Assembly: GCF_015277775.1 (NCBI RefSeq)
Contig: NZ_CP063849.1
Span: forward strand, 2,542,001 to 2,606,000
Reading direction: 5' to 3'
Length of the DNA stretch: 64,000 nt
Origin: Paludibaculum fermentans
GTDB taxonomy: Bacteria; Acidobacteriota; Terriglobia; Bryobacterales; Bryobacteraceae
Shown here: positions 12,778 to 15,572 of the stretch, piece after piece
Layout: each line of letters opens with the position of its first letter
How positions within the stretch are numbered: position 1 is the first letter of the stretch
The notes under the pieces: model-generated
The model's database searches: none
Told to the model about the DNA's origin: nothing
The model's input: only the letters and a program-made list of their open reading frames with translations
Made by a program: the position numbers and the translations under genes

Positions 12778-13187
12778 GCCGGCGCTCTCTCCAACCTTGT
12801 CCGAGCAATCCACACAAGCAGTCTACTACTCACGGCCACCGCCCGGATGAGTGAATGCGACCGGTGATGGCCGGGGCTCACAGCACCTCCAAGACAGTCG
12901 AACCGGCCGCCTCCGCAGCGGTCCAAGTGCGACGCGTCCAGCCCCGGCGCAAGCCGCACGCTCCGCCCGCCAGACGTCGCCGATTCCCCAGGCATGGCCC
13001 GCCCCGGGATCCAGTTTGAGAGCGATGCGAATCACTGCCGGCGCGACATCGAGGAAAGCTGTGGACAGTCACCAATAGACGGCCCAACGACCGCCCGGCC
13101 TCGACTGCGGCAACCTCGGACATTCGTTGCATGATTCCAGCCAAATCAGGATCCCGGGAAGTCTGGCCATCTGGCAGCAACCCACCC
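12778..13187. other. intergenic stretch containing the left copy of the Fic-flanking repeat
   Basis: No gene is supported. Most of it (12941-13190) is the left copy of a ~250-bp direct repeat described separately. The remainder shows no obvious structure. Confidence 0.5.
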
Positions 13188-13190
13188 TCA
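12941..13190. repeat. left copy of ~250-bp imperfect direct repeat flanking the fic gene
   Basis: By eye this stretch matches 15044-15294 over its full length, mostly by substitutions, with long identical blocks such as CGCCCGCCAGACGTCGCCGA and TTTGAGAGCGATGCGAATCA. It runs right up to and includes the fic stop codon (TCA at 13188-13190). Substitutions do not favour third codon positions in the open minus frame, so it looks non-coding. Confidence 0.8.
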
Positions 13191-14717
13191 CCGCGGATAC
13201 CCCTCAAACGCCGCTCGCACAATCCCTTCAATGAGACTCACTTCCTCGTCTCGCAATGCACCAAATTCTCCGCTCCGCCGCCGCTTCGAGAGGCTCCCTT
13301 GATTCTGCCGGATGAACGCCACCAGGTCGGCCGCCATCTGGTCGGGCATTTCCACCGCCTCCATGATTCGTCGCGTGGCCACATCGTGCCTGCCCAGGTA
13401 ATCGATCTCCCGCGGCAGATCCTCTTCGACGGTACGCCGGACACACGAGGCAAGGAACTCCGCTTCCTCGGTACAGTCGAAATACCGGTACAGATCCGCC
13501 GTCTCGTTCAGCACCTCGACGTTCCGTTGCGGTGTCGGCCGCCATTCGATGAATCGCATCAGTGGTGCGGAATGAGCCTGCAGCGTGGACCGATATTCCT
13601 CCACACGCTCCAGCATCACAGAGGATACCGGGAACACCAGTCCGGGTGGTGTAAACCGCCCTTCTGTCAGGACATGATGAATCAGGCATCGGTGCATCCG
13701 CCCATTGCCGTCCTGGAACGGATGGATGTATACGAATCCAAACGCGGTCGCGGCGGCCATCAGGACGGCGTCCAGGCTGTCCTCGCGCATGCGGTCGTTC
13801 GCTTCCAGCAAGCCCGCCATCAACTCGCCAACGTCACTCGCGCGCGCGCCGATGAACTCGGGCAAAGGGTCGCCATCCCGGTCGCGCTCGCCCAGGAACA
13901 CCCCCTCGACTCGAAGACCGGCACGAACGAATCGGGTGTCTTCGATGAGCACGCGCTGCAACCGGAGGATCTCTTCCAGAGTCAGCCGGTTCTTGCCCGC
14001 CTGCTGGATCGCCCGGCCCCATCGCTCCAGACGGGTGCGCGGCGGTCTCTCTCCTTCAATCTCAAAGCTGGCCCGGCTGTCAGCCAGCAGCAAGAAACTG
14101 GCCGCGCGGGCAATCAGATGGGCACCCGTCCGCCCAATCGTCTCGCGGGCCTTGGCCGGCAGATCCAGGTCCAGGAATTCCGTCAGGGCCTGGGTGCGCC
14201 GGATCACAGGGCAGAACCGGCCTGTGCCCAATAAATTGTCCCGCACACGGTGGCGCTTCGACGCGCGTCCCTTGCCGGTGAAATAGGTTTCCCCATCGAG
14301 TACATCGACAGCGGCAGCGCGCGGCGCATCATCGACATCCAGGGTGCGGCCCATCAACGTCTCGTAGAGGAACCAGCCTCGACGCGCGGTGCCCCCTGTC
14401 GGAGCCGACCGGACAAACGCCTCCATCTCGTGCCTCGGAACCGCTTCGAAGATTCTCTTCAGCACCAGGAGGTCGATCTCCTCATGCCTCAAGGCGAAGG
14501 TCAGTTGGTCGGCAAAGCCGTCCCCGGGCCAGTAGCGCCGGTCAAAGATGACCCAACCGTCCTCTTCCCTGGAACTGCCGCTGACATGCCGGTCGGATAC
14601 ACAACTCGGACGTCGGACAGGCGCCGCGGCAGCGAAAGTGTTCACCAGAGCCGCCCAACCAGCCAGCCGCGCACCTTTCGGAATCGTCCTCTCCTGAAAG
14701 ATCCCTTCGCCGTGCAA
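13188..14717 (-). CDS. Fic/DOC family protein (class II, probable AMP transferase)
   Basis: I choose a TTG start at 14717 because a perfect AGGAGG lies six bases upstream. The resulting 509-residue protein begins where family members usually do (IPKGARLAGWAAL at 12-24). The open frame extends to 15311, but the extra part runs through regulatory and duplicated DNA. Residues ~12-165 are the N-terminal domain of this Fic group (TFALRHEEIDLLVLK, TGGTARRGWFLYE). The inhibitory helix motif SFEIEG is at 217-222 (SxxxEG, class II). The complete catalytic loop HPFQDGNGRMHR is at 332-343. The C-terminal ~130 residues look helical. Fic enzymes transfer AMP or other phosphates to protein hydroxyls, and the SxxxEG glutamate blocks productive ATP binding. 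No separate antitoxin gene is adjacent. A repeated-box regulatory region precedes it. Confidence 0.85.
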   Translation of the reverse strand: MHGEGIFQERTIPKGARLAGWAALVNTFAAAAPVRRPSCVSDRHVSGSSREEDGWVIFDRRYWPGDGFADQLTFALRHEEIDLLVLKRIFEAVPRHEMEAFVRSAPTGGTARRGWFLYETLMGRTLDVDDAPRAAAVDVLDGETYFTGKGRASKRHRVRDNLLGTGRFCPVIRRTQALTEFLDLDLPAKARETIGRTGAHLIARAASFLLLADSRASFEIEGERPPRTRLERWGRAIQQAGKNRLTLEEILRLQRVLIEDTRFVRAGLRVEGVFLGERDRDGDPLPEFIGARASDVGELMAGLLEANDRMREDSLDAVLMAAATAFGFVYIHPFQDGNGRMHRCLIHHVLTEGRFTPPGLVFPVSSVMLERVEEYRSTLQAHSAPLMRFIEWRPTPQRNVEVLNETADLYRYFDCTEEAEFLASCVRRTVEEDLPREIDYLGRHDVATRRIMEAVEMPDQMAADLVAFIRQNQGSLSKRRRSGEFGALRDEEVSLIEGIVRAAFEGYPR

Positions 14718-14730
14718 TTCAGTCCTCCTG

Positions 14731-14869
14731 CGTCGAAATCCGCACACAAGCGTCGAAAACGGCTTCATTCGACAGCTAACCGTCGAAAAACCACCATATA
14801 CCATCCTGGCGTCGAAAACCACAATATTTCGTCGAAAACTGGCACCAATGGCACATGAGCGTCGAGAAG
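14731..14869. promoter_or_regulatory. array of phased CGTCGAAAAC boxes upstream of fic
   Basis: GTCGAA occurs at 14732, 14752, 14782, 14811 and 14831, with a GTCGAG variant at 14861. The steps are 20, 30, 29, 20 and 30 bases, close to whole helical turns. The longer unit is CGTCGAAA(A/T)(A/C). One inverted half-box, TTCGAC, lies at 14768-14773. The first box abuts the AGGAGG of fic. This is the layout of a cooperative operator array, so I infer regulation of fic by a repeat-binding protein. Confidence 0.7.
14795..14824 (-). promoter_or_regulatory. candidate fic promoter inside the box array
   Basis: On the minus strand TTGTGG (14819-14824) and TATATG (14795-14800) are 18 bases apart. One GTCGAA box lies inside the spacer and others lie on each side, an arrangement suited to repression. 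Confidence 0.35.
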
Positions 14870-15043
14870 CGAGCGCAGCGCCCGCAAGGAAGCCGCCACA
14901 AGCGGAACTGCCCGCCCTTGCTCGTCCAGCCTGGGTGGGCGAGGCTCCCTGACCTGCCCAATAATCGCCGTCAGCCTTCGGCAAGGCAGCCGCGATCGTC
15001 ACCGATGTCGGCCGGCTCGGTGGCACGCAAAGGCGCTGCATCG

Positions 15044-15294
15044 AGCCCCGGCGCAAGCAGCACGCTCCGCCCGCCAGACGTCGCCGATTCCCCAGGCATC
15101 GGTCGCCGCGGGATCCCGTTTGAGAGCGATGCGAATCACTGCCGATGCGATAGAGAGGAAAGCTGCGGACAGTCACCAACAGACGGTCCAACGACCGCCC
15201 GGCCTCGACTGCGGCAACCTCAGACATGCGCGGCTTCACTCCAGCCAAAGCAGGATCCGGGGAAGTCCGGCCATCTGATAGCAACGAACCCTCA
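15044..15294. repeat. right copy of ~250-bp imperfect direct repeat flanking the fic gene
   Basis: This is the counterpart of 12941-13190 in the same orientation, starting GCCCCGGCGCAAGC and ending at CCCTCA. In the left copy that CCCTCA contains the fic stop codon. The pair encloses fic and its operator array. Confidence 0.8.
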
Positions 15295-15572
15295 CGGCTG
15301 GACCACAGCAAAAGTCAGGCTGCCCAGGCCCTCCCGGGAAACTGGTCCGTCCGAGGATCCGCACCGCCACTGAAACGGCACCGTTGTCCTGCGTGCGATC
15401 CGTACAGTGGCAGTTCGTTACGTACAACTGGTCGCTCTGCCAGACAAGCGTCGAGCGGTTCAAGGTCACAAGGTACATGCCGCCAGCGGCGTGAAAACTG
15501 ATCATCTCCGATCGCCGGGGAAAGGCGGCACGGCGTTGCGCTATACCGCCGAGGAAGGGATGGCGCTCCTAT

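Follow-up and report, generated by a model that had tools for sequence, protein, structure and literature searches.

A fic gene in the 64,000-nucleotide stretch of Paludibaculum fermentans DNA analyzed here (the window) is preceded by six copies of a short box, TTTTCGAC, arranged on the gene strand as two triads. This geometry is conserved upstream of orthologous genes, and the type of box is associated with lineages of the Fic protein. Given the layout, conservation and phylogeny of the boxes, we consider it likely that the Fic protein itself binds this array cooperatively and represses its own gene, the array serving as its operator. The features of the locus are as follows, with the promoter elements and ribosome-binding site called from the sequence.

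13188..14717, minus strand: fic gene, 509 aa, TTG start, encoding a putative class II Fic enzyme that matches PADLOC PDC-S24
14724..14729, minus strand: ribosome-binding site AGGAGG
14731..14739, minus strand: box 6, triad 2, one mismatch (ATTTCGAC), adjoining the ribosome-binding site
14751..14759, minus strand: box 5, triad 2
14781..14789, minus strand: box 4, triad 2, directly downstream of the predicted -10
14795..14800, minus strand: predicted -10 TATATG, between the two triads
14810..14818, minus strand: box 3, triad 1, in the spacer of the predicted promoter
14819..14824, minus strand: predicted -35 TTGTGG
14830..14838, minus strand: box 2, triad 1
14860..14868, minus strand: box 1, triad 1, one mismatch (TTCTCGAC)

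An earlier note on this DNA had reported GTCGAA at 14732, 14752, 14782, 14811 and 14831 and GTCGAG at 14861 on the plus strand, spaced 20, 30, 29, 20 and 30 bases apart, and all of these positions and spacings are found in the sequence. The array is larger than first described. Read on the gene strand, four exact boxes and two with one mismatch advance toward fic in steps of 30, 20, 29, 30 and 20, forming two 30-20 triads set 29 apart. The strong start of the gene also holds (AGGAGG at 14729-14724, then TTG at 14717-14715, minus strand), as does the predicted promoter, TTGTGG-18-TATATG at 14824-14819 and 14800-14795 on the minus strand, with a box in its spacer. The inverted GTCGAA that the note pointed out exists as well, at 14768-14773, but it falls outside the conserved pattern. 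When up to one mismatch was allowed, a count upstream of 30 orthologues gave 134 forward and 0 reverse boxes, and the inverted half-box was rejected as part of the operator. Coding constraint was also rejected as a cause of the window boxes, which lie upstream of the start codon and whose steps of 20 and 29 break the frame. A 271-nt direct repeat, 87% identical between its copies at 12924-13194 and 15028-15298, flanks fic and the array. Only those two copies were found in the genome, and recombination between them would delete the whole fic cassette.

The host genome (9.53 Mb in two contigs, completeness 100) was searched for the pattern GTCGAAA-N10..24-GTCGAAA, which occurs in five places, four of them within the fic array; the reversed control pattern occurs once. 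The fifth match is locus L006, and there is no sign among these matches of a regulon elsewhere in the genome.

A scan of genome contigs for orthologues gave 42 loci, and among 61 genomes searched (the window's and 60 relatives) 41 matched at an E value of 0.001 or better, many of them to the Fic core only. In 41 upstream regions (the window and 40 loci), 188 boxes with at most one mismatch lie on the gene strand versus 3 on the other, and shuffles of the same regions gave a mean of 4.6 and a maximum of 13 (shuffling was mononucleotide throughout the box, triad and self-similarity tests). This count includes a few loci with a cut or broken gene whose upstream region is present, together with near-copies such as L054/L055. 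It leaves out the distant loci L013-L028, L074 and L077, the partial loci L067, L068, L073 and L075, and the duplicate L041. At least three boxes are present in 39 of the 41 regions and at least four in 34, the fewest being in L060 (two) and L070 (two, beside a run of N). With no spacing imposed, the most frequent distances of up to 60 between boxes in these regions are 30 (44 pairs), 20 (37) and 50 (36), followed by 27 (12). The note had named lack of conservation upstream of orthologous fic genes as grounds for abandoning its claim; the comparison instead found the boxes strongly conserved.

Fitting six boxes to 44 arrays gave 41 that score at least 36 of 48, although the fit permitted only steps of 29-30, 20-21 and 25-30, so that the unforced evidence for spacing is the pair distances above. 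The fitted steps in the 41 arrays are 30 (38) or 29 (3), 20 (35) or 21 (6), 25-29, 30 (37) or 29 (4), and 20 (30) or 21 (11). Information in the fitted boxes amounts to 1.89, 1.60, 1.67 and 1.38 bits for the tail C, G, A and C, 0.68-1.66 bits for the T-run and at most 0.35 for the flanks; because the boxes had been chosen for their resemblance to TTTTCGAC, both tail and T-run look better conserved than they otherwise would. The context of the predicted -35 is visible in the columns before box 3 (T 0.80, G 0.76, A/G 0.87 in the 41 arrays). The predicted -10 is weakly conserved in register, since only two columns stand out there (T 0.54, A 0.68). The helical phasing claimed for the array survives in part: steps of 20 and 30 are near whole turns, but they are not exact at 10.5 bp per turn. 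Arrays differ in the distance between their triads (16 in L086 and L087, 23 in L077, 25-29 in the 41 TTTTCGAC-clade arrays), while the spacing within triads stays at 29-30 and 20-21. The near-constant spacing and the overlap with the predicted promoter fit the note's suggestion of a cooperative operator.

The protein encoded downstream appears to be a class II Fic enzyme by its predicted fold and motifs, with AMP transfer as its putative activity. The Pfam Fic domain spans residues 245-350 (E 7.4e-15), and the AlphaFold model (mean pLDDT 93.5) has the predicted fold of class II Fic enzymes. The active-site motif of this class is HxFx(D/E)GNGRxxR, and the window protein carries HPFQDGNGRMHR at 332-343. 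Across 51 proteins compared, H332 is retained in 50 and D336, N338 and R340 in all, and G337, G339 and R343 are invariant. The class II inhibitory motif, (S/T)xxxE(G/N), lies N-terminal of the core; it is present as SFEIEG at 217-222, with S/T at 217 and E221 in 51/51 proteins and G/N at 222 in 49/51. The PDC-S24 profile matches the window protein nearly over its full length (E 3.7e-186; residues 17-505 of 509, profile 5-490 of 497) and also matches all 51 proteins. We take the name to stand for "phage defence candidate, single gene"; no paper that uses it was found in the literature search. The window Fic is likely an anti-phage enzyme. The operator array is not part of the PDC-S24 model.

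No helix-turn-helix (HTH) family of Pfam was recognized in the 51 Fic proteins, the nearest being a regulator-like domain in one member at E 0.37. In the model of the window Fic, C-terminal helices at 459-503 lie inside a range that aligns loosely to SoFic and CbFic2. Compared with the HTH-bearing end of SoFic, the C-terminal part gives an rmsd of 6-7, and the comparison with that of CbFic2 is by range only. The protein scores 22.5 bits against the cut-off of 550 of the SoFic equivalog family NF046030 (NCBIfam) and so falls outside that family. Nineteen sites that are conserved yet differ between two large Fic clades are scattered along the protein and point to no domain.

More distant relatives often keep the 30/20 spacing with the box replaced by TTTTCGAT (L085, L086 and L087), TTTTCAYG or TTTCCACG (L077), and a clade at 45-51% identity has TTTTCATG, TTTTCACG or TTTTCAGG. 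L093 and L095 each have seven boxes, at alternating steps of 29-30 and 20, that extend into the coding region. For part of the TTTTCAYG clade (L093, L095, L089 and relatives) the coding region contains the final two boxes; there, the operator may shape the N-terminal residues. A six-member subclade (L096, L101, L117, L118, L119 and L121) has a near-palindromic box, GTGA, about seven bases, then TTTCAC, only half of which is seen in the TTTTCGAC clade. In 21 relatives at 29-41% identity, analyzed without any motif, the leading self-similarity lags are 30 (11), 50 (10) and 20 (6), compared with means of 0.3-0.4 and at most 2-3 in shuffled sequences; lags 23, 27, 31, 37, 51 and 57, with counts of 2 to 4, also reach or exceed their shuffle maximum. 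The count for lag 60 (5) is due entirely to L025, where a tandem repeat with a period of about 60 upstream of the fic relative carries a promoter-like element. A single triad beats all 40 shuffles in 12 of these 21 relatives and does not in 9, and no clear array was seen in L016, L017, L019-L022, L024, L074 or L215. Relatives on viral contigs are compatible by eye: L135 (50%), L136 with TTTTGCCAG, and L137 and L138 with an A-rich box. In genome G038, two separate contigs each carry a Fic relative, at 47-51% identity.

Box type was compared with host on a tree of 87 Fic proteins. This is a quick tree in which long branches meet (L099, L100), and 18 of 105 loci were removed beforehand as partial, broken or duplicate. 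Box type requires 12 changes on it, compared with a shuffled mean of 40.0, and none of 200 shuffles was as low. Host group requires 18 changes, where the 11 groups need at least 10 (shuffled mean 34.1), again with 0/200 as low; groups were taken from record titles, some of which belong to metagenome bins that may be misassigned, and loci from the search of relatives' genomes all count as Acidobacteriota. Because host group clusters too, change counts alone cannot separate Fic lineage from host, and the argument for Fic lineage rests on mixed clades and a pair of paralogues. A TTTTCAYG-type clade (23/23 rows, support 99) includes Acidobacteriota, Alphaproteobacteria and Bacteroidota. A 46-row clade holds 40 TTTTCGAC, one TTTTCGAT, one TTTCCACG, one mislabeled and three other rows; labels were assigned by rule, or by hand for L088, and the rule gave CAxG to L060 though its array reads TTTTCGAC, and "other" to L010, L066 and L070. 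By record title its hosts are Acidobacteriota, Alpha- and Gammaproteobacteria, Desulfuromonadales, Gemmatimonadota, Nitrospirota, Verrucomicrobiota and one Melainabacteria bin. Conversely, several box types occur within Acidobacteriota and likewise within Alphaproteobacteria, where two Agrobacterium plasmids differ (L087 with TTTTCGAT, L093 with TTTTCAYG). One Rhodovastum plasmid encodes two Fic paralogues, L131 (49%) and L132 (38%), with unlike boxes. Scored for a 30-20 triad, L132 exceeds all 40 shuffles and L131 is matched by 1 of 100.

No widely common neighbor was found beside fic among 3,391 open frames of at least 40 aa at 46 loci; a partner shorter than 40 aa or beyond the flanks would escape this comparison. 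The widest family occurs at four loci that are close kin (L057, L060, L061 and L076), and the next consists of EAL/GGDEF-type frames in L094-L096. Among these frames there is also no adjacent partner of the kind found in two-gene toxin-antitoxin modules (Doc/Phd, FicTA). Annotated products that occur in 2 of 21 annotated plasmid loci include MucR (L089, L218), HTH proteins (L096, L099), a recombinase (two Psychrobacter loci, L099 and L217) and EAL proteins (L094, L095). The fic gene itself is present in 45 of 399 genomes of the class at E 1e-40 or better. It matches 279 of 72,556 plasmid records (251 over at least 80%) and none of 50,697 phage records. An exact-triad search of 396 genomes of the phylum matched five (the window's, G261, G372, G265 and G419), compared with one for the reversed control. 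G261 has a triad and a fic gene, and in G419 the triad lies inside a lysine-rich frame. G372 (L128) and G265 (L129) have single exact TTTCGAC triads between other genes in genomes without a fic orthologue, which counts against the autorepressor reading, though these orphan triads may be scars of lost copies. Some of their neighbors resemble defense or toxin-antitoxin genes by eye.

The earlier note had left the binder as either a protein encoded elsewhere or Fic itself, and the comparisons favor Fic. It appears the likeliest binder because box type follows Fic clades, paralogues differ and no neighbor is widely common; if the reader travels with the gene, the gene's own product would be the simplest reader. 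Fic subunits would then bind the boxes head to tail, with three boxes spaced 30 and 20 bp as one binding unit. Triad 1 would cover the predicted -35 and spacer, and triad 2 the predicted transcription start through the ribosome-binding site. A loaded array would exclude RNA polymerase, keeping a potentially self-toxic enzyme scarce, and if free Fic dropped or changed state, for example upon phage infection, the promoter would open in a burst. Against Fic as the binder we count the lack of a recognized HTH, the relatives without an array and the clustering of hosts on the tree.

The least improbable alternative, which we nonetheless regard as unlikely, is that the array is bound by another DNA-binding protein, a trans-acting antitoxin or defense regulator whose gene lies elsewhere in each genome and which controls fic. 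The missing HTH and the host clustering would suit such a protein, and RptR offers a precedent as a small repressor acting on direct repeats of defense genes (PMC12255303). It would have to account, however, for one box type across several host groups and several types within one, for unlike boxes of two paralogues on a single plasmid, for a genome in which four of five box-pair matches are the fic array, and for the lack of a widely common neighbor. It is also quite doubtful that Fic binds the array mainly so that DNA holds or sets enzyme activity, as antidote or activator, with repression secondary. The array exceeds a simple repressor site in length, and in CbFic2 DNA binding alters dimerization and activity (PMC10628234). 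Within the TTTTCGAC clade, however, the boxes overlie the predicted promoter and start region with little variation in layout, as expected for repressor sites.

Boxes that start with a T-run about two and three turns apart could curve the DNA and recruit a silencing nucleoid protein, with no dedicated binder. We find this very improbable, as the CGAC tail is as conserved as the T-run (in boxes chosen by TTTTCGAC likeness, flattering both) and is replaced in other clades, and reverse boxes are absent upstream at the 30 loci although curvature needs no single strand. It is scarcely credible that a mobile element accounts for the boxes, as its ends or as scars. The gene is patchy, occurs on plasmids and is flanked by the 271-nt repeats in the window, but the 30 loci with 134 forward boxes upstream have only 3 forward and 8 reverse boxes within 400 nt downstream, and box positions are near constant relative to the start codon and promoter. 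This one-sided layout largely refutes transposon ends. We also entertain, with low confidence, an immune switch made of one gene, with its promoter DNA as antidote, so that a parked Fic oligomer both silences the gene and is held inactive. The DNA readers of such an oligomer would be 30 and 20 bp apart and would dock it on its own promoter, and phage attack on, or takeover of, the DNA would release the enzyme. Spacing would be set by the oligomer, whereas the box would drift along with the reading helix, and paralogues on the same plasmid would therefore stay insulated.

Autorepression by Fic, the reading that we prefer, has a precedent in CccR of Yersinia pseudotuberculosis, a SoFic-like Fic enzyme of 380 residues that represses its own promoter through a C-terminal HTH and an inverted-repeat site with a 26-bp spacer (PMC9755527). 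Both are class II Fic proteins with a site at their own promoter, and both would combine enzyme and autorepressor in one protein, which was shown for CccR and is proposed here. The window differs in that its two 30-20 triads comprise six direct repeats and that no HTH is recognized, and no inverted-repeat operator was found in the 30 loci, where the boxes are direct repeats (134 forward versus 0 reverse). The proposed principle would thus be common with CccR and the family not, given the SoFic score (22.5 versus 550), the direct repeats and the unrecognized HTH. CbFic2 differs in having DUF4172 and a DeoR-type HTH, and the accessible part of its report describes tests with random DNA and gives no specific operator (PMC10628234). 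The anti-phage Fic known as Sofic is followed by a small antitoxin gene (PMC12249575). RptR is likewise a case of a defense promoter governed through short direct repeats, three of 9 bp, but this 79-aa repressor of a defense island is a separate gene product, whereas Fic itself is proposed here (PMC12255303). The literature searched, which lacks preprints and the majority of subscription papers, yielded no array that combines fixed spacing with boxes specific to a lineage.

Should Fic prove to read its own operator, this would be a compact way to quiet a stand-alone, potentially self-toxic defense enzyme without an antitoxin gene. The family forms a natural experiment in DNA recognition, with near-constant spacing and diverging boxes at about a hundred loci and more on plasmids. 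The reading residues and oligomer geometry are directly testable across it, and it may be a source of repressors without cross-talk.
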